Source: an uncultured Verrucomicrobia subdivision 3 bacterium (lineage in GTDB: Bacteria > Verrucomicrobiota > Verrucomicrobiia > Limisphaerales > UBA11358). From it: a stretch of DNA of 33,199 nucleotides. The position numbers and the translations under genes are program-made. Below the pieces are notes generated by a model. It ran no database searches, was not told the DNA's origin, and worked only from the letters and a program-made list of their open reading frames with translations. Shown in pieces: positions 2,122 to 11,817 of the stretch (the first letter of the stretch is position 1; each line of letters opens with the position of its first letter). The stretch covers positions 1 to 33,199 of the forward strand of contig CAJAQO010000189.1 of assembly GCA_903944085.1 (NCBI GenBank). The letters are read 5' to 3'.

Positions 2122-2541
2122 TTATTTTTCCAGCGCCAATTGCGGCAGATTGGTGGCCGAGAGCGGGTTGATTTTGAAATCGGCCTGTTCCAGTTGCCGC
2201 CGCCAGTCGGCCATCAAATTCTGCACCCGCTGAAGCTCCAGTTGTTCGTGCCGCGCGGGATATTTTTCCAGATTCGCCTGCGCCAGTTTGAACAGCGCGG
2301 CGGCCGGGCGCAGCCGGTTCTTTTGCAGATGCACAAACGCGCCCGCCAGTTGGATCAGGCCTTTGTAAAAATCGCCATTCGGACCGTGACGGCCGGGCAG
2401 CCACAAATCCTCCAGCACTTCGTGCGCCTCGAAAAAAAGCTGGCGGTTGAAGCAGTCAAAATAGCCGAGATAATGGGCATCCAGTTCCTGTCCCCGAAAG
2501 GATTCGATCATCGCGACGATGCGGGCGCTCTTGTGGCTCAC
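2122..2541 (-). CDS. DUF309 family protein
   Basis: 139 aa if read from GTG at 2541. An internal ATG at 2511 (residue 11) would give 129 aa and is equally plausible. The family signature is clear: a helix with FFEAHEVLEDLW (about residues 36-47), then FYKGLIQLAGAFVHLQ (58-73). DUF309 proteins are small, all-helical and of unknown biochemical function. The conserved EAHE and GLIQ faces suggest a binding pocket, but that is inference. The gene is convergent with htpG with no gap between the stops, so the two transcripts must overlap. It is divergent from hemC. Its C-terminal tail after residue 115 is not conserved in my memory of the family. Confidence 0.85.
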   Translation of the reverse strand: MSHKSARIVAMIESFRGQELDAHYLGYFDCFNRQLFFEAHEVLEDLWLPGRHGPNGDFYKGLIQLAGAFVHLQKNRLRPAAALFKLAQANLEKYPARHEQLELQRVQNLMADWRRQLEQADFKINPLSATNLPQLALEK

Positions 2542-2669
2542 CGCTGTAGTTTAAGGTGAAAGCCCCGGCCCGCGATAATAAAAATGCTGTCGCCTGCCCG
2601 CGCTGCGGCCGGCGCGAGTTGTTTCCTTTTCATCCGCGCAAAATTGTGTTCAGCTATGCCGAGAATTTT

Positions 2670-3638
2670 ATGGCTGAAAAACCGATCATCATTTGCACGC
2701 GCGGCAGCGCGCTGGCGCTCGCGCAGTCAAACCTGATTGCCGCGCAATGCCGCGCCGCGTTTCCCAAGCTGCAATTCGAGCTGAAAATCATCAAGACCAC
2801 CGGCGACAAGTTGCAGAAGGCTTCGATGGCCAAGACGGATCCGAGTTTGCCAAAAGGTTTGTTCACGAAAGAACTGGAAGTCGCCCTGCTGGCCGGCAAA
2901 GCTGATTTGGCGGTCCACAGCTTGAAAGATTTGCCGACTGAATTGCCCGCCGGCCTGATCCTCGCCGCCACGCCGGAGCGCGAGGATGTGCGCGACGTGT
3001 TGATTTATCGCGCCGCAAAAAAATCCAGCGCGCGCGGTTTCAAGGCCAACGCCACGTTGAAAGATTTTCCGAAAGGCGCGACCATCGCCACCAGCAGCAC
3101 GCGGCGCAAAATGTCACTGCTCGCCTTGCGCCCGGATTTGAACATCGTGGAAATTCGCGGCAATGTCGCCACGCGGATGCAGAAAGTAGCCGACAATGAA
3201 AACATTGACGCCACCGTGCTCGCGCTCGCCGGCATGACGCGGTTGAAATTCAAAATTAAAGCCAACGGCACCATCACCGGCGAAGGCGTGCCGGACGGTC
3301 TGCTCGCTTCGGTGCTGGATTTGGCGGCGATGCTGCCGTGCGTCGGCCAGGGTGCCATCGGCCTCGAAACGCGCGATGACGACGAACGCATCGCGAAGAT
3401 TTGCGCCAAGCTGAATCACGCCGAGACGTTTCATTGCGTGACGGCGGAACGTGCTTTTTTACGCGGCATGGGCGGCGGGTGCCAAAGCCCCGTCGGCGCG
3501 CACGCGGAAATTTCCGGCAAGAAAATTTCGCTCAAGGCGATTTCTTTCCGCGACGAAGTGGTCAAACGCGGCGAGGCGAAACGCCCGCTTGCCGAGGCCG
3601 CCCTGCTCGGCGCGCAAATCGCGGAAGAATTGAAATAA
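2670..3638 (+). CDS. hemC: hydroxymethylbilane synthase (porphobilinogen deaminase)
   Basis: Joins four porphobilinogen units into hydroxymethylbilane in tetrapyrrole (haem) synthesis; cytosolic. It has 322 aa from the ATG at 2670, close to the usual 310. Visible landmarks are CTRGSALALAQ (residues 9-19), KGLFTKELE (62-70), VHSLKDLP (82-89, where D87 corresponds to the catalytic Asp), TSSTRRK (141-147) and GQGAIGLETR (226-235). GGGCQSPVGAHA (268-279) holds C271, the expected dipyrromethane-cofactor cysteine. The frame runs upstream to 2556, but that part contains no HemC sequence. No other hem gene is beside it. The spacing before the ATG has no Shine-Dalgarno motif. Confidence 0.96.
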   Translation: MAEKPIIICTRGSALALAQSNLIAAQCRAAFPKLQFELKIIKTTGDKLQKASMAKTDPSLPKGLFTKELEVALLAGKADLAVHSLKDLPTELPAGLILAATPEREDVRDVLIYRAAKKSSARGFKANATLKDFPKGATIATSSTRRKMSLLALRPDLNIVEIRGNVATRMQKVADNENIDATVLALAGMTRLKFKIKANGTITGEGVPDGLLASVLDLAAMLPCVGQGAIGLETRDDDERIAKICAKLNHAETFHCVTAERAFLRGMGGGCQSPVGAHAEISGKKISLKAISFRDEVVKRGEAKRPLAEAALLGAQIAEELK

Positions 3639-3866
3639 TTTCGGAAGTTTGCAGCGGCCGACGTGAGGCTCAAACTTTGGAATAGTTTAAATGCCTTGCG
3701 CGACGTTTGCGTTGGCGGCCAAAGAATAAAAATTTTTTCCATTAGCCAGCTTCGCGCCCTTTGTCCGACTCCTTTTTAACTCCAAACCGTGGACCGGCAG
3801 ACCGCCACGGCAAACATTTCCAAAAATAGTTTGTCCACTTTGGCCGCCGGCGGAGATAATTAGTAG

Positions 3867-3990
3867 ATGCCCGATGCAAGCGACATGGATCTGATGCGGC
3901 AATTTGCCCGCGACCAACCACGCCGACCGAATCGAGTTCACGGCGGCGATCCATCCGGACCAACTGTGTTACGGACTGGTCTTTCTCGTT
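3867..3990 (+). pseudogene. possible decayed ECF sigma factor, 5' end
   Basis: From the ATG at 3867 the frame reads MPDASDMDLMRQFARDQ. From memory, this resembles the opening of many ECF sigma-70 factors in Verrucomicrobiota (M-D/S-x-D-M-x-L-x-R-x-F/Y-A-R). The frame then loses similarity. A second frame continues with EFTAAIHPDQLCYGL, reminiscent of the AFTALVxRHxxLVYxxA segment of sigma region 2. That pattern fits a frameshifted and truncated copy. No region 4 helix-turn-helix follows. The resemblance is short and was judged by eye, so this is tentative. The right boundary is approximate. Confidence 0.35.
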
Positions 3991-6176: not shown

Positions 6177-7547
6177 TTAACGGTGGTCGAAGAATGTGGT
6201 CAGCGGATAGACTTGGGCATTGAGTGTTCGCATGCCGTCAAGCAGTTCGGTGTAGGGCTGGTAGGTGCAGTTGACGATGCCTTTGTTGCTGTCGAGGTTG
6301 CTGGGATCGGCCTTCGGGTTCGCAGGGTCGTTGTCGGCATATTTGAACCAGTGCCAGCCCACGCAGCCGCGCGCTTCCAGCAGCGCGAGCGTGAAGTTCT
6401 GGTAAAACAGCGCGCGGTCGCGCTGGGTCTTGACGTTCCAGCCCGCGCCGGTCTTGTTGGCCAGGCCCGGCGCGTCCTGCGCCTTGGCATACCATTCAGT
6501 GGCCATCATCGGCCGGCCCGACCATTGCTCCCACTTGCGCACGGTTTCCGTCGGCGTCCAATCGCCATAGACATTCATCGCGATCACCGGCAGATGCTTC
6601 CCGGCCACCTTCCAAAGCGCGGCGTTGCTGGCATCGGTCCCGTGCAACCGCGAGCCAAGATAGATGTGGTGCGGATCGGCGTTGTGAATCGCGGTGCCGA
6701 CGAGGGTGTAGTAACGGTCCATCACGTGCGCCGTCCATTCATCGTGATCGGCGGCGGTAAGATTCTTGGTGTCGGCGTGCCGCGCGGCGAGCCACGCTTC
6801 AAGTTCCTTGCGACCGGGATCATCGGTGGGGCGCTGGAGATAGCGCTCGATGGCCTGCTTGGGCAACTGCAACTCGTTGTCGGAATAGATGCCGAGCAGC
6901 CAAGGGTCGTCTTTCGTCGTGGCGAGCTGTTGCGCGTATTCATCGCAGAACTTCGGGAAGTCGGGATGGAACACCGGAATCAATTCATCCTGATAGCCGG
7001 TGTGGCCGGGCACAACGTGCGTGAGGCCCAGCTTCTTGGCGAAGGCCGACATGAAATTCACGCCACGCGTATAAACCAGCCGTTGCGGCGCGACGGCGAG
7101 CGCTTCGTCAGCCGACCAGTTGCCGGTGCCGTTGAAACCGTTCGTGTGCAGCAGCGCCGCTGTCTGGCGCGCCCAGTCATCGCGGTCTTGGAAGCGCTTC
7201 GCGAACGCGGCCTTGAAAGTCGGGCCGCTGTCCGGGCTGACCGTGGCGACGCCGATGTGGATGAACGCATGACCTTCCGGCGTGACGAGCCACCAGCGGT
7301 CGCCGATTTTTTCCGCGCGGAAGAAACCGGTGCCGGCACGGCTTTGCGGGCCATTCACCCAGCCGCCGAACTGGTCAAGCTTCGGCGCGACCGTGGGCGG
7401 CTTGAAATCGGGAAGCGTGGTCAGCGTTCGCGTGGGCATCGGCACGGGCGGTTTGCCGTTCCGCCAAGCCTCGACAGTGACTTCGGCCTGCGCGGACACG
7501 ATCATGCCGGCGCAGATGCCAACGAGCGTTAACAAACGTAGGTTCAT
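6177..7547 (-). CDS. secreted clan GH-A glycoside hydrolase, agarase-like
   Basis: 456 aa with a signal peptide (residues 1-21, MNLRLLTLVGICAGMIVSAQA). The mature part reads RWWLVTPEGHAFIHIGV near residue 84, a motif common in beta-agarase and related GH50/GH86-type TIM-barrel enzymes. GIYSDNEL contains E225 in the Asn-Glu position of the clan GH-A acid/base. MATEWYAKA contains E351 in the nucleophile position. VIAMNVYGDW and GWHWFKYADN fit later barrel strands. It therefore probably cleaves a polysaccharide in the periplasm or outside the cell, but the substrate and GH family cannot be fixed by eye. An upstream TTG at 7553 is in frame; the ATG at 7547 gives the better signal peptide. No sugar transporter or regulator is adjacent. 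Confidence 0.72.
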   Translation of the reverse strand: MNLRLLTLVGICAGMIVSAQAEVTVEAWRNGKPPVPMPTRTLTTLPDFKPPTVAPKLDQFGGWVNGPQSRAGTGFFRAEKIGDRWWLVTPEGHAFIHIGVATVSPDSGPTFKAAFAKRFQDRDDWARQTAALLHTNGFNGTGNWSADEALAVAPQRLVYTRGVNFMSAFAKKLGLTHVVPGHTGYQDELIPVFHPDFPKFCDEYAQQLATTKDDPWLLGIYSDNELQLPKQAIERYLQRPTDDPGRKELEAWLAARHADTKNLTAADHDEWTAHVMDRYYTLVGTAIHNADPHHIYLGSRLHGTDASNAALWKVAGKHLPVIAMNVYGDWTPTETVRKWEQWSGRPMMATEWYAKAQDAPGLANKTGAGWNVKTQRDRALFYQNFTLALLEARGCVGWHWFKYADNDPANPKADPSNLDSNKGIVNCTYQPYTELLDGMRTLNAQVYPLTTFFDHR

Positions 7548-7549
7548 AA

Positions 7550-7726
7550 TCAATTAAGAACAAAGCGGCGGTGATTTGGGTTCAGGAAAATTCTCCATTG
7601 CCTCAGATGCTCCGCGATCGCGCCGAGATTCTCCAATGCTGTCTCAAGGTCCACCGTGATGTCGTCGCGGAGAATATTGCAATAGTTCCAAAGTTTCTGG
7701 ACGAGTTGAGGTGCGGGGCTGCTCAT
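7550..7726 (-). pseudogene. 5' remnant of hsdM (type I restriction methylase)
   Basis: 58-codon frame starting with an ATG that overlaps the doc stop (ATGA). Residues 7-22, QLVQKLWNYCNILRDD, match the highly conserved start of HsdM N6-adenine methylases, where the next residues would normally be G-x-S-Y-x-D-Y. Here the frame switches to a 36-residue tail that I do not recognise and then stops just before the glycosidase gene. The SAM-binding and NPPF catalytic motifs are absent, so it cannot methylate DNA. The simplest reading is a deletion that removed the rest of an hsd operon and left its first codons behind the antitoxin-doc pair. A genuine small protein is less likely but possible. Confidence 0.6.
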
Positions 7727-8127
7727 TTGTGGGCATGTAAAAGTTTTCGCAACCGTTTCGTTGTCTGCCCGCAGTCGAGACGGCTGGCCGCGACCTCCAG
7801 CGCCAACGTCTCCCACGCCTCCACGGCCAGCTTTTCATTCGACAGCAAATTATTTTCACTCAAAAAGATCAGGCACGTCGCCAACGCCGTGCGCTTGTTG
7901 CCGTCCACGAACGGATGATTGCGGCACAGATAAAACAGATACGCCGCCGCAATTGCCAACGGATCGGTGAACAACGCCTCGCCCGTCATCGTCGCCTGCG
8001 GCGTGCCCACCGCCGATTCCAGCAGCATTGCTTCCCTCAGCCCTGCGCCGCCGCCATGCGCGGCCAGCACTTCCGTGTGAATCGCCTTCACGGCTTCCAC
8101 CGTGAGATGCGCAAGCGGCCGCTTCAT
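7723..8127 (-). CDS. doc: Doc-family toxin (Fic fold, death-on-curing)
   Basis: 134 aa. The Fic/Doc active-site motif is intact: HPFVDGNKRTA (residues 71-81, with H71, D75, N77, K78, R79). In phage P1 Doc this site phosphorylates elongation factor Tu and stops translation. The helical N-terminus (HLTVEAVKAIHTEVLAAHGG) fits the short Doc form and not the longer AMP-transferring Fic proteins. The ATG overlaps the upstream antitoxin stop (ATGA), and its own stop overlaps the ATG of the hsdM remnant in the same way. The partner is an AbrB/MazE-type protein and not Phd. No inhibitory S/TxxxE(G/N) helix is visible in Doc itself, so control should come from the partner. Confidence 0.9.
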   Translation of the reverse strand: MKRPLAHLTVEAVKAIHTEVLAAHGGGAGLREAMLLESAVGTPQATMTGEALFTDPLAIAAAYLFYLCRNHPFVDGNKRTALATCLIFLSENNLLSNEKLAVEAWETLALEVAASRLDCGQTTKRLRKLLHAHK

Positions 8128-8351
8128 GACAGCCGCCGGAACAGCTCCGCATTCTTTTTGATCAAACGCTTCGCGGTGGCGGCCGCTTTTTCAGCGGTGA
8201 TGACGGGCCGCACGGGCGTCAGCACAATCGAGCCGCCCTCGTGCAGGCTGATGCTCACCTGGTCGCCCACCCGGATGCGCGCCAGATCCATCAGGGCCGA
8301 ATCAAACATCAGCCCCTGCGAGTTGCCAATTTTTGTGATCGTCTTTGTCAT
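8124..8351 (-). CDS. AbrB/MazE (SpoVT)-type antitoxin
   Basis: 75 aa. Residues 1-48 form a swapped-hairpin AbrB domain: ITKIGNSQGL (5-14), MDLARIRVGDQVSISLHEGG and SIVLTPVR. The remaining 25 residues are charged and probably helical (AAATAKRLIKKNAELFRRLS), which suits an antitoxin tail that binds and masks the toxin. As in other type II systems it would repress its own promoter by binding the DNA upstream of 8351 (inference). The stop overlaps the doc ATG, giving translational coupling and the usual antitoxin-first order. No Shine-Dalgarno sequence is seen in front of its ATG. Confidence 0.87.
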   Translation of the reverse strand: MTKTITKIGNSQGLMFDSALMDLARIRVGDQVSISLHEGGSIVLTPVRPVITAEKAAATAKRLIKKNAELFRRLS

Positions 8352-9211
8352 GCCGTTAAACTATGTTTTACGTCTGATCCAGTCAAGCCAGTTCATGTAG
8401 TTTCGCGTCTGGCGGTGTCATGCGGCCCTCCCAGCAGGTTCGACCGGCAAATCAAGGAAGAGTTGCGGGAAGTAGAACTTGTAAATTTTCGCCGGGAAGG
8501 CGATACGCAGCCGGCCTTTGGGGCTGGCCGAACTGATCCGCCGCCGGGTGCGAGTCGGGGAAATCCTCGTCGCCCAACGCGAGCAGGGCGAACGTCCTCG
8601 CGAGCCGTCGTCAACCCATCTTTTCCCTTTCGCCCCAGCTCGTGGGGACACTCGCCCCGCCAGACTCCGACTGACGGAACTTGAAGCCTGGTTTGATTTT
8701 GGAGGCTGCAACTATGCCGCGCCTGACGGCGCTGCCACCGGCATTTCATTTCTGCGTGGCGAGCCGTGTCCGGCTGCGGTTACATTTCGTGTGTGAAATT
8801 ATTTCACGCCGGCCCGGTGATCAACGCCAAGATGCTCGTGACGATGCTGGCGTAACATGGCATCGCCGCCACGCAGGTGTTCGCGGACCCCGCCGCGCCG
8901 GACGCCGGCGCGTCGGGTCAGTCATGATTGAAGAAGTCGTGCAGTTGAGCTTTGCCTGCATCGGGCATCCAGTCGTTGACGTGGCTGCATTCAAAAATCC
9001 ACGGATAAACCAGGTTCCTGGCGCAGGGATTCGTTGAGTGAACGCACGCCCATGGCGAAAAGCAGGGCGATCAGGTTGCGCTGGTGGCGTGGCGATGGTG
9101 CATGGCGGGTTGCCGTTTCAATCACTTCAAAGGAATTTTGCCGTTTCTTTGGATTGCGTTGATTGCAGGCGCGCTTTAACTTGGCAACAAGTTTTTGCAG
9201 CTTATTACGAA
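8352..9211. other. gene-poor interval upstream of the gspE unit
   Basis: About 860 bp without a convincing intact gene. 8393-8790 is GC-rich, open in several frames on both strands, and rich in Arg/Ser/Gly when translated, which is typical of non-coding GC-rich DNA. It could be a dispersed repeat of this genome. 8793-8927 holds a possible pseudogene, listed separately. 8991-9211 contains only a Lys/Arg-rich minus-strand frame with no recognised motif. The promoter for the TPR-gspE pair should lie in the last 100 bp, but no box pair is convincing. Confidence 0.5.
8793..8927 (+). pseudogene. possible small DUF2007-like gene with an internal stop
   Basis: From GTG at 8793 the frame reads VKLFHAGPVINAKMLVTMLA, a TAA stop at 8853-8855, then HGIAATQVFADPAAPDAG up to a TGA at 8925-8927. 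The pattern of an alpha segment followed by L-x-x-x-GI-x-A resembles small DUF2007 (putative signal-transducing) proteins. Third-codon positions are strongly GC-biased across the stop, as in coding DNA here, and a single C-to-T change (CAA to TAA) would explain the stop. The similarity is short and judged by eye. Confidence 0.25.
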
Positions 9212-10066
9212 ATGGCGATGACGGCATTAAATCCGGGTGAAGACGCTCAATTGCATCAAACGATTGAGATGTTCGAGGTCATTGTGCAGTCGCAGCCGAG
9301 CGACACGCAGTCGCTGGAGATTCTCAAGGAAGCTTATTCCAAGCTGGGGCGCGAGGAAGATGTCATCAACACGTCGAAACGCATCGCGCAGGCTTACTTG
9401 CAGCAGGGGCAGCTTTCGTCGGCCATTCTCGAATACGAAACCGTCCTGCAGCGGCGGCCCGATGATGCGGATGTGCGCGCGGCGTTGAAGCTAATCGAAG
9501 ACAAGGCGAGCAGCGCGGCGGTGCAGTCGGCCCAGGATGCGACCACGCTGCCGTCCGTGTCCGAAACGACGCTGCTGCGGCGCAAGGCCAAGCCGCGCGC
9601 GGCACCGGCGGACGAGGTGGATGACGGGCGCAAGTCGCTATATAAAATTTATGTGGAAAGCAAAATCATCACGGCGGGTGATTTTGATTTATGCTGGCGG
9701 AACGTGGATTTGACCATGGCCCCGCCGGACGTCGTGGAGCCGTTCATCCAGACGTTGCACGAAAAAGGCATTTACCTCATCGAGAAATCGCTCCGGCTGT
9801 TGTCCGACAAATCGCGGGTGGCCTATCTGCCGCTGGATCGTTACGACATAGACATGGATCTGTCGCGCGGCTTTCCGGCGGAAGTCTGCCGGCGCTGGTG
9901 TGTGCTGCCCTTTGACCGGATGAGCAAGGCGATTCTCGTGGCGACGGCCAACCCGTTCAACCAGCAGGCGGCGAAGGAACTCGCGGAGGCAACCACGCAC
10001 CGGTTGCTGTGGTATGTCGCGCCGCCGAATGACCTGCTGGCCAATCTCCGCATAGCGTTCCGCTGA
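9212..10066 (+). CDS. TPR plus MshEN-like protein, partner of GspE/PilB
   Basis: 284 aa from the ATG at 9212; a second ATG two codons later is possible. Residues 11-95 form two to three TPR-like helical pairs (TIEMFEVIVQSQPSDTQSLE, KLGREEDVINTSKRIAQAYL, AILEYETVLQRRPDDADV). A charged, low-complexity linker covers about 100-140. Residues 200-284 resemble the MshEN/T2SSE N-terminal fold, including AYLPLDRYDID, RRWCVLPFDR, ILVATANPFN and LLWYVAPPNDLLANL. It has no ATPase domain and no signal peptide. The GspE/PilB ATPase gene starts 2 bp after the stop, so the two are surely co-transcribed. It probably acts as a cytoplasmic adaptor or regulator of the secretion/pilus ATPase; that role is inference. 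Confidence 0.8.
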   Translation: MAMTALNPGEDAQLHQTIEMFEVIVQSQPSDTQSLEILKEAYSKLGREEDVINTSKRIAQAYLQQGQLSSAILEYETVLQRRPDDADVRAALKLIEDKASSAAVQSAQDATTLPSVSETTLLRRKAKPRAAPADEVDDGRKSLYKIYVESKIITAGDFDLCWRNVDLTMAPPDVVEPFIQTLHEKGIYLIEKSLRLLSDKSRVAYLPLDRYDIDMDLSRGFPAEVCRRWCVLPFDRMSKAILVATANPFNQQAAKELAEATTHRLLWYVAPPNDLLANLRIAFR

Positions 10067-10068
10067 TC

Positions 10069-11817
10069 ATGGCCAAAATCAAATCATTCGCGGAACGCAT
10101 CGCTGACGCGCTCGTCGAGGACGGCTTGTTGAGCGCGAGCCAGATCGAGGAATTGCTCGAACGGCAGCGCAAGGAAGGCGCGCGACTGGTAAAACTGCTG
10201 GTGGACAAAGACAAGCAATACGTCAGCCCCGACGACCTCGCGGTCTGCATGGGCCGCGTGCTGAATGTTTCGCCGATCAATCTCGCACGCATCAATCTTC
10301 AGCCGGAAGTGGTGGAACTCGTCCCGCGCGACACGGCGCACAACCACAAGGTCGTTCCGGTCAGCCGGCTGGATAATAAATTGTTCCTCGCGATGGCCGA
10401 CCCGCTGAACGTCCTGGCCATTGACGATGTCCGGCGCATCACCAAGCTGGAAATCGCGCCGCTCATCGCGTCGGAGAAAGCCATCACGGAAAAACTCAAC
10501 GCCTTGGATGCCGCCAAAAGCGGTTCGATGGAGGACATCATCCAGGACGCCGAAAAAAAACGGGATGCGGAAGCCGGCGACGCCGACACGCTCGAATCGG
10601 TCAAGGAAGCGGTCGAGGATATGAACCTCGACCAGCTCGCCGCCTCCAGCGAGGAAGCGCCGGTCATCAAGCTCGCGAATTTAATTATTCTTCAGGCCAT
10701 CAAGGATCGCGCGAGCGACATCCACCTTGAACCCTTTGAAAAAGTGATGCGCCTGCGCTACCGCATTGATGGGGTGCTGATTGACGCCACGCCGCCGCCC
10801 AAACAGATGCAATTGGCGCTGGCCTCGCGTTTGAAAATCATGTCGAACCTGGACATCGCCGAGCGCCGGCTGCCGCAGGACGGCCGCATGCGGGTCAAGG
10901 TCAGCGGCAAGGATTATGATTTGCGCGTCTCGGCGCTGCCCACGGTTCACGGCGAAAAAATCGTGCTGCGCGTCCTCGACAAAAGCAATTTGTCCGCGAG
11001 CATTGACAAACTCGGCCTCGACGAGTCCACCTTCAAGCAGTTCAAGAGCGCCATTGATGCGCCGCACGGATTGATTCTCGTCACCGGCCCGACGGGGTCA
11101 GGAAAAACGACCACGCTTTATTCCGCGTTGAACGAACTGAACAATCCGATGTGGAACATTGTCACCGTCGAAGATCCGGTCGAATTTCAAATTCCCGGCA
11201 TCAACCAGGTGCCGACCAAAAAGGAAATCGGATTGTCGTTCGCCAATGCCTTGCGCTCCATTTTGCGTCAGGACCCGGATATCATCATGATCGGCGAAAT
11301 CCGCGACACCGAGACCGCCGAAATCGCCATCGAAGCCGCGCTCACCGGGCATCAGGTGCTGTCCACGATGCACTGCAATGACGCGCCCGGTGCCATCGCT
11401 CGGCTCGACGACATGGGCATCGCGCCGTTTTTGATTTCGTCCTCCATCATTCTGTCCTGTGCGCAACGCCTGATGCGCCGCATCTGTTCGCACTGCAAAG
11501 AGCCGCTCACCTATCCGCCGAAAATGTTTGAAGACCTCGGCATTGACCCGGGCACATTTGACGGCGTGCAGCTTTACCGCGGCCGCGGCTGTGAGCGCTG
11601 CAAAAATTCCGGCTATGTCGGGCGCATGGCCGTCATCGAAGTCATGACCGTCAGCGACCAGATCCGCAAGCTGATCATCGCCCGCGCCAGCACCCGCGAA
11701 ATGGCCAAGCTCGCCATCAATCAGGGAATGAAAACGCTCCGCATGGTGGCGCTGGATCGTGCCCGCGACGGCATCACCACACTAGAACAGGTCATGGTTA
11801 CCACTTCCGCCTTTTAA
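10069..11817 (+). CDS. type II secretion / type IV pilus assembly ATPase (GspE/PilB)
   Basis: 582 aa, a normal length. The N-terminal MshEN domain (about 10-150) is the part that in MshE binds cyclic di-GMP. A charged linker covers 150-200. The ATPase core has an Asp box (ASDIHLEPF near 218-226), Walker A GPTGSGKT (340-347), EDPVEF, and the Walker B region DPDIIMIGEIRD followed by a His box (TGHQVLSTMH). Four cysteines (C473, C476, C508, C511) form the metal site of GspE/PilB. It would power pseudopilus or pilus extension from the cytoplasmic face. GspE and PilB cannot be separated by eye. No other gsp or pil gene is adjacent apart from the TPR protein upstream. It converges on the next gene with a 6-bp gap. 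Confidence 0.94.
   Translation: MAKIKSFAERIADALVEDGLLSASQIEELLERQRKEGARLVKLLVDKDKQYVSPDDLAVCMGRVLNVSPINLARINLQPEVVELVPRDTAHNHKVVPVSRLDNKLFLAMADPLNVLAIDDVRRITKLEIAPLIASEKAITEKLNALDAAKSGSMEDIIQDAEKKRDAEAGDADTLESVKEAVEDMNLDQLAASSEEAPVIKLANLIILQAIKDRASDIHLEPFEKVMRLRYRIDGVLIDATPPPKQMQLALASRLKIMSNLDIAERRLPQDGRMRVKVSGKDYDLRVSALPTVHGEKIVLRVLDKSNLSASIDKLGLDESTFKQFKSAIDAPHGLILVTGPTGSGKTTTLYSALNELNNPMWNIVTVEDPVEFQIPGINQVPTKKEIGLSFANALRSILRQDPDIIMIGEIRDTETAEIAIEAALTGHQVLSTMHCNDAPGAIARLDDMGIAPFLISSSIILSCAQRLMRRICSHCKEPLTYPPKMFEDLGIDPGTFDGVQLYRGRGCERCKNSGYVGRMAVIEVMTVSDQIRKLIIARASTREMAKLAINQGMKTLRMVALDRARDGITTLEQVMVTTSAF

Follow-up and report, generated by a model that had tools for sequence, protein, structure and literature searches.

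An AbrB-Doc toxin-antitoxin pair as the probable relic of a type I restriction-modification operon in an uncultured Verrucomicrobia bacterium

The gene pair described here lies in a 33,199-nucleotide stretch of DNA from an uncultured Verrucomicrobia subdivision 3 bacterium; we call the whole stretch the window. Our reading, to which we give a probability of roughly 0.85, is that the locus is a type II toxin-antitoxin (TA) module left from a type I restriction-modification (RM) operon of the order hsdR-hsdS-AbrB-Doc-hsdM, in which hsdM has collapsed and the pair has been kept as a self-contained unit. On the minus strand, from 8351 to 7550, the window encodes the antitoxin, Doc, and a 58-codon frame. 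An earlier note, made from the sequence alone, had described these three frames as joined by two ATGA overlaps, and the coordinates confirmed the two joints. Both TA frames are intact. The features, all on the minus strand, are as follows.

8355-8371, minus strand: imperfect palindrome GTAAAAC-ATA-GTTTAAC, putative AbrB operator (conserved core pattern upstream)
8382-8386, minus strand: TTGAC, putative TA promoter -35 box (inferred from its conserved placing before the AbrB start)
8383-8394, minus strand: probable hsdS remnant GAA CTG GCT TGA (E-L-A-stop), overlapping the -35 box (by eye, compared with G009 and G135)
8124-8351, minus strand: AbrB/MazE-like antitoxin, 75 amino acids (sub-threshold matches in Pfam and NCBIfam; 97% identity to a G135 protein)
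8124-8127, minus strand: ATGA overlap of antitoxin and Doc (frame coordinates)
7723-8127, minus strand: Doc/Fic toxin, 134 amino acids (Pfam Fic, 1.4e-17; HPFVDGNKR motif intact)
7723-7726, minus strand: ATGA overlap of Doc and the third frame (frame coordinates)
7550-7726, minus strand: third frame, 58 amino acids (HsdM head plus tail; translation)
7661-7726, minus strand: relic head, HsdM codons 1 to 22, its start overlapping the Doc stop (95% identity to G009 HsdM 1-22, E 2.8e-9)
7598-7660, minus strand: relic tail, final 21 codons of HsdM, joined in frame after codon 22 (aligns locally with HsdM C-termini)
7550-7597, minus strand: old hsdM stop converted to TGG (Trp), followed by 14 readthrough codons up to a new stop (position inferred from the tail alignment; translation)

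Elsewhere in the window (9038-11817), an MshEN/TPR protein is followed by a T2SSE-type ATPase, probably a type IV pilus or type II secretion pair.

Doc scored above the cut-offs of two family models (Pfam Fic, 1.4e-17, 64.8 bits, cut-off 24; NCBIfam TIGR01550, 40.8 bits, cut-off 38.65) and matched the sequences of three "death on curing protein" structures (9.4e-11 to 1.4e-9). The Fic/Doc motif is HxFx(D/N)xNKR; the window protein has HPFVDGNKR, with H, P, F, D, G, N, K, and R invariant in a six-row alignment. By its sequence, the protein is a clear member of the Fic/Doc family. The antitoxin is named only AbrB/MazE-like because its scores fell below the cut-offs of Pfam MazE_antitoxin (6.5e-5, 23.2 bits, narrowly under the curated 24.7) and NCBIfam TIGR02609 doc_partner (1.7e-6, 28.3 bits, cut-off 55.9). 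Its gene lies directly upstream of Doc on the same strand with a 4-base overlap, which is shared by 86 of 96 distinct AbrB-Doc loci, and the two genes are predicted to form a type II TA module. As in Phd-Doc and TIGR02609-Doc modules, a small antitoxin gene stands upstream of Doc, the toxin has a Fic-type motif, and there is a palindrome at the putative promoter; unlike them, the window module has an AbrB/MazE-like antitoxin below the TIGR02609 cut-off. When the window was compared with five relatives, dN/dS was 0.07 to 0.18 for AbrB and 0.20 to 0.33 for Doc, but the divergence behind these values may largely predate the deletion in hsdM, and thus they do not isolate selection after it.

The third frame is, judging from its alignments, an hsdM gene whose middle was deleted in frame and whose stop was lost. 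The earlier note had recognized an HsdM start at its head, and the first 22 residues are indeed 95% identical to those of HsdM in a congener, G009 (E 2.8e-9). It had also held that homology was then lost, which proved wrong: residues 23 to 42 or 43 match the HsdM C-terminus. The score of this match was reached by 0 of 2,000 protein shuffles with HsdM of G009, by 0 of 2,000 with that of G135, and by 5 of 2,000 with that of G045. At the DNA level, the corresponding numbers were 0 of 1,000 for both G009 and G135 and 181 of 1,000 for G045, which leaves G045 without DNA support. A truncated hsdM with a random tail is ruled out, the tail being the HsdM C-terminus. The alignments to HsdM place the join right after codon 22, with the final 21 codons following, and at residue 44 of the frame a Trp occupies the expected position of the hsdM stop. 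No Pfam family matched the 58-amino-acid frame at an E value of 1; the reference HsdM of G009 (510 residues) matched N6_Mtase at 4.5e-64 and HsdM_N at 6.9e-13. Over the first 22 hsdM codons, dN was 0.019 against both G009 and the locus L172, and 0.233 against the decayed head of G135; the low values are as would be expected if the window deletion were recent.

The ancestral order can be read from the congener. In G009 (locus L065), the genes run hsdR, a Gp49-like/HTH gene pair, hsdS, AbrB, Doc, and full-length hsdM, and both ATGA overlaps are present. Family models confirmed its hsdR (EcoEI_R_C, 7.4e-37), hsdS, and hsdM. Because hsdS is split over two frames (2250-3035, with no Pfam match, and 3041-3943) and hsdR is cut by the contig end, the predicted type I system is not certain to be active. 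In G135, hsdM is full length, hsdS matches in part, and no hsdR was seen within the stretch fetched; a surely intact type I operon with AbrB-Doc was not found among the loci examined. As for the window, it holds the two ends of hsdM and a possible 12-base hsdS end, rather than hsdR, hsdM, and hsdS all intact, and from this gene content it is a relic of a type I RM operon and not a member of the class. When its genome (96% complete) was searched with the G009 proteins, the HsdM matches, the relic aside, had 22 to 34% identity, and HsdR gave a 26% match plus a 41% piece of 76 residues; HsdM_N had no match in this genome. A further, distant hsdR/hsdM-like pair, at 22 to 34% identity, is located at G000:C291:5820-8878 of the same genome.

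The sequence before the antitoxin is also shared. Of 109 upstream regions, 86 (73 of the 96 distinct ones) have TTGAC 33 to 37 nt before the AbrB start; L215 and L238 were left out for too little upstream DNA. The core of the palindrome, a GTAAAACATAGTTTTAC-type sequence before the antitoxin, was present in 83 of the 109 (71 of 96 distinct), and its spacing to the start codon is mostly constant. In the window, the putative operator for AbrB or AbrB-Doc is GTAAAACATAGTTTAAC, within 8340-8400. By eye, GAACTGGCTTGA before the window antitoxin resembles an hsdS end, and G009 and G135 have CAA CTG GCT TGA (Q-L-A-stop) at the same place; being 12 bases long, the remnant alone gave no score above chance (hsdS score z 1.2). 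In the window and G009 alike, the stop of this putative hsdS end falls inside the TTGAC of the putative -35 box.

We propose the following course of events. While the operon was whole, expression of hsdM would have been coupled to the TA pair through the TA promoter and the ATGA overlap. The sequence itself shows that an in-frame internal deletion collapsed hsdM to codons 1 to 22 plus the last 21, and that hsdS is gone but for its apparent last three codons and stop. The pair would have been kept because it was self-contained, carrying both an antidote and a promoter, whose -35 box covers the old hsdS stop and whose -10 region is covered by the putative operator. Repression of this promoter would come from binding of AbrB, or of AbrB together with Doc, to the operator. 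AbrB would also inhibit Doc, which when free would arrest translation in the manner of P1 Doc.

How often AbrB-Doc is linked to hsd genes was surveyed more widely. Doc-like matches at an E value of 1e-10 or better occurred in 102 of 293 genomes of the order. AbrB adjoins Doc in all 30 of the best loci in the order, and in 80 of the 80 loci kept (out of 291 confirmed) from a named genome collection. By title, the collection loci come mainly from Verrucomicrobia or relatives, plus some Proteobacteria, Planctomycetota, and Acidobacteria and one Fibrobacteres metagenome-assembled genome (MAG). These sets gave 111 loci (31 + 80), of which 108 remained after L238 (no usable AbrB start), L089, and L212 (both without a Doc frame) were dropped; 96 were distinct. 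When viral contigs were scanned for Doc, distant relatives appeared at 52 loci, with 34 to 59% identity in the best segment.

Sequence from the hsdM head, the hsdS tail, or both was found at the edges of the module in 12 of the 96 distinct loci, the window included, at z > 9 versus shuffles; this cut was chosen after the scores were known, and the next locus (L194, z 6.3) was counted as unlinked. The other 84 had no hsd sequence at their edges, a fraction that describes loci drawn by similarity to the window Doc and is not a population estimate. At least 3 of the 84 have other hsd-like pieces, nearby in L200 and, by eye, just after Doc in L077 and L091. The idea that AbrB-Doc is an obligate part of RM operons is ruled out by these 84 loci. 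Linkage was clustered on the tree, with 7 changes versus a shuffled mean of 11.5 (none of 500 shuffles went that low). This is a quick tree with weak inner support, in which no well supported branch groups the window; the four rows nearest to the window were hsd-linked and the fifth unlinked. One additional hsd-linked AbrB-Doc locus, in G343 (L273), was found via its hsdM head and is outside the 12.

Coupling of AbrB-Doc to hsd genes is therefore found in other genomes, G009 among them. The proposal in the earlier note that the pair was once part of a type I RM operon and survived the loss of that operon is supported by the same chain in G009 and by the hsd-edged loci of the four nearest tree relatives. 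Its placing of the pair as the leading part of the operon needs correction: the pair lay between hsdS and hsdM, and led the hsdM part with its own putative promoter.

Decay of hsdM beside the pair has occurred repeatedly. It is broken directly beside AbrB-Doc in the window, G033, G077, G116, G147, L172 (the same locus as L266, G590), and G343; in G047 (L075), its decay is seen at the DNA level. In G135, a broken hsdM head beside AbrB-Doc is followed by a full hsdM, and in G166 (L082) and G238 (L098) the hsdS tail is the only hsd remnant at AbrB-Doc. An apparent internal deletion in the hsdM of G200 (L134) is actually an N run (7848-7929) and was not counted as a break.

AbrB-Doc is one of many cargos at this site. 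Searches for hsdM heads of this family gave matches in 44 of 293 genomes of the order and in 52 of 384 genomes of the class, which are overlapping sets, and many of the fetched loci had the order hsdR-hsdS-cargo-hsdM. The cargo families were TIR_2/AAA, HTH_3 plus Peptidase_M78 followed by DUF4411 (which we take to be PIN-like), RhuM, nSTAND3, DUF5131, AAA_21 plus RloB, Fic/Doc, YhcG, reverse transcriptase, OLD-like TOPRIM, GmrSD_N, RelA_SpoT, and helicase; the Pfam scan covered 20 of the cargo proteins seen, two of which had no Pfam family. A four-base overlap of the hsdM head with the upstream stop was present in 26 of the 69 heads that had an upstream frame (78 heads examined). From these gene orders, the hsdS-hsdM junction in Verrucomicrobia appears to be a recurrent cargo slot (TIR/AAA, HTH-M78, RhuM, DUF5131, RloB, Doc).

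Some of these cargos were noted in their own right. A reverse-transcriptase protein lies between hsdS and hsdM at L142:8917-10530 (G082; by Pfam) and L283:1220-2911 (G560; by its similar start). Two-gene cargo of a DUF5131-type gene plus a second gene is present at L131:6399-8368 (by Pfam) and, by similar starts, in L140, L146, L148, L200, and L283. L268 and L269 (G521:C73 and G401:C22, two species with the same genus code) share a similar downstream neighbor gene and have different cargo and a broken hsdM (1-35 and 1-22, respectively), which reflects either cargo exchange or independent decay at one site.

The slot can also be stacked. By eye, at least two hsdM-head matches were present on 9 of the 49 matched contigs (G010, G045, G076, G103, G116, G135, G144, G166, and G200). 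In seven of the nine, a broken head is followed by an hsdM that is full or is interrupted by a contig end or N run; G144 and G116 have broken copies only. A broken hsdM head runs directly into an hsdS C-terminal stretch in G076, G166, G116, and G311 (G116 being the weakest, at 35% identity), and shorter versions of this arrangement were seen by eye in G010, G200, and G147. G076 carries a double stack: hsdS, nSTAND, scar, DUF5131 plus partner, scar, HTH/M78, hsdM. The idea that a cargo brings its own hsdM head gained no support: among 25 heads, mean similarity was 0.686 within a cargo type versus 0.683 between types (894 of 2,000 permutations as high), and for 12 hsdM bodies it was 0.799 versus 0.813 (1,577 of 2,000 as high). 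Since heads are no more alike within a cargo type, insertion of units is not favored over tandem duplication plus cargo exchange. Tentatively, and with rather less than even confidence, we suggest that in one family of verrucomicrobial type I RM operons the slot is a docking site, where [hsdS tail - cargo - hsdM head] units may be added serially by recombination at the operon gene ends. New cargo would be placed before the working hsdM, often translationally coupled to it, old heads and tails would remain as scars, and TA cargo may leave or outlive the operon as a free module.

Three other explanations of the window locus or of its retention were weighed. It is very improbable that the 58-codon frame is a functional small protein built from two HsdM ends. 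The frame is open, keeps the ATGA joint, and has few amino-acid changes in codons 1 to 22, but its stop is lost and it had no second instance in 59 genomes (its own included), where matches in other genomes at E values of ≤0.01 ended by residue 27; the wider searches related to this frame used the HsdM start as their only query. Head-plus-tail remnants without the middle do exist in G033 (1-43 + 361-510), G162 (1-120 + 290-508), and G315 (1-50 + 438-477), but with other junctions; in G147, a short hsdM head is followed, by eye, by the apparent last HsdM codons in another frame. A better but still poor chance attaches to the arrival of the pair as a small fragment with an hsdS tail and an hsdM head, at a site that never had a complete RM operon. 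Such a unit is found at L172:5167-6867, in a Prosthecobacter-labeled MAG. There the 5' portion of a gene resembling galactokinase (Pfam GalKase_gal_bdg, 4e-22) precedes the last ∼20 codons of hsdS, AbrB, Doc, and the first 36 codons of hsdM, and the start of that gene is repeated downstream (frame 6571-6867), so such fragments seem to be mobile. A head-only fragment, however, would not bring the hsdM tail that in the window is fused in frame to the head.

The remaining explanation, also raised in the earlier note, is that the pair was kept as a guard of the RM operon, whose loss or inhibition would free Doc and kill or stall the cell. We consider this unlikely. Within or beside R-M loci, translation-blocking partners have precedents in PrrC and in neighborhoods with DOC, in the available parts of PMC3710099 and PMC12707154. 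In addition, none of seven hsdM heads directly beside AbrB-Doc was full length, versus 21 of 49 with other or no cargo (Fisher P = 0.038, post hoc). The window was excluded from this count and G135 is among the seven; one AbrB-Doc head with an N run was set aside, six with other or no cargo run off contigs, and L267, which ends with its contig and may or may not be broken, was entered as broken. The count kept 63 of the 78 heads, leaving out L065 and L200 (not from the head searches) and heads outside the LWNY-type family. It fits persistence of the pair after RM loss and is, for guarding, suggestive at most. If the pair were a guard, the RM genes should be protected from loss, but these were lost repeatedly while the pair stayed, and most of the surveyed loci (84 of 96) have no hsd sequence at their edges. 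Other cargo also persists beside a broken hsdM (L148, L268, and L269), and for TvrAT, a Doc-type pair in a type I locus, the available part of PMC6265443 reports no evidence of addiction. We retain the reading of a self-contained TA module that outlived its operon.

Doc pairs have already been described in type I loci. In the parts of PMC6265443 available, TvrAT is a Doc-family TA pair inside SpnIV (tvr), a type I RM locus of pneumococci, and has an antitoxin assigned to TIGR02609. It is flanked by hsdM and hsdR, in the company of hsdS fragments and a recombinase, and the role tested for it was suppression of excision and shuffling. The AbrB-Doc slot, in contrast, is between hsdS and hsdM, and in the window the RM genes are gone. 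PMC3710099 covers R-M neighborhoods with DOC, RhuM, and RloC/PrrC; according to its accessible part, Doc and RhuM hold similar positions among R-M genes, and this placing is as in the Verrucomicrobia loci. That part is silent on cargo stacking, on hsdM-head/hsdS-tail scars, and on TA relics that follow RM loss. PrrC with EcoprrI is, in the available text of PMC3710099 and PMC12707154, likewise a translation-blocking factor embedded in a type I operon, but PrrC is held inactive by the RM enzyme, whereas the window Doc has its own AbrB partner. The accessible parts of PMC8713573 and PMC5398294 have nothing on hsdS-hsdM cargo, and in the open-licence literature searched, as far as its texts were available, neither cargo stacking with hsdM-head/hsdS-tail scars nor an AbrB-Doc relic turned up.

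The window thus appears to have caught an AbrB-Doc pair en route from operon cargo to free-standing gene pair. It keeps apart two claims that are often merged, that a pair is located in an RM operon and that it guards that operon. For the cargo slot, a precedent may exist in Campylobacter, in the rlo genes of its type I loci. If the slot pattern is true, it would help to explain how type I RM operons gather and swap so many unrelated defense genes, and orphan hsdM starts and hsdS ends would offer a simple search key for more defense cargo.
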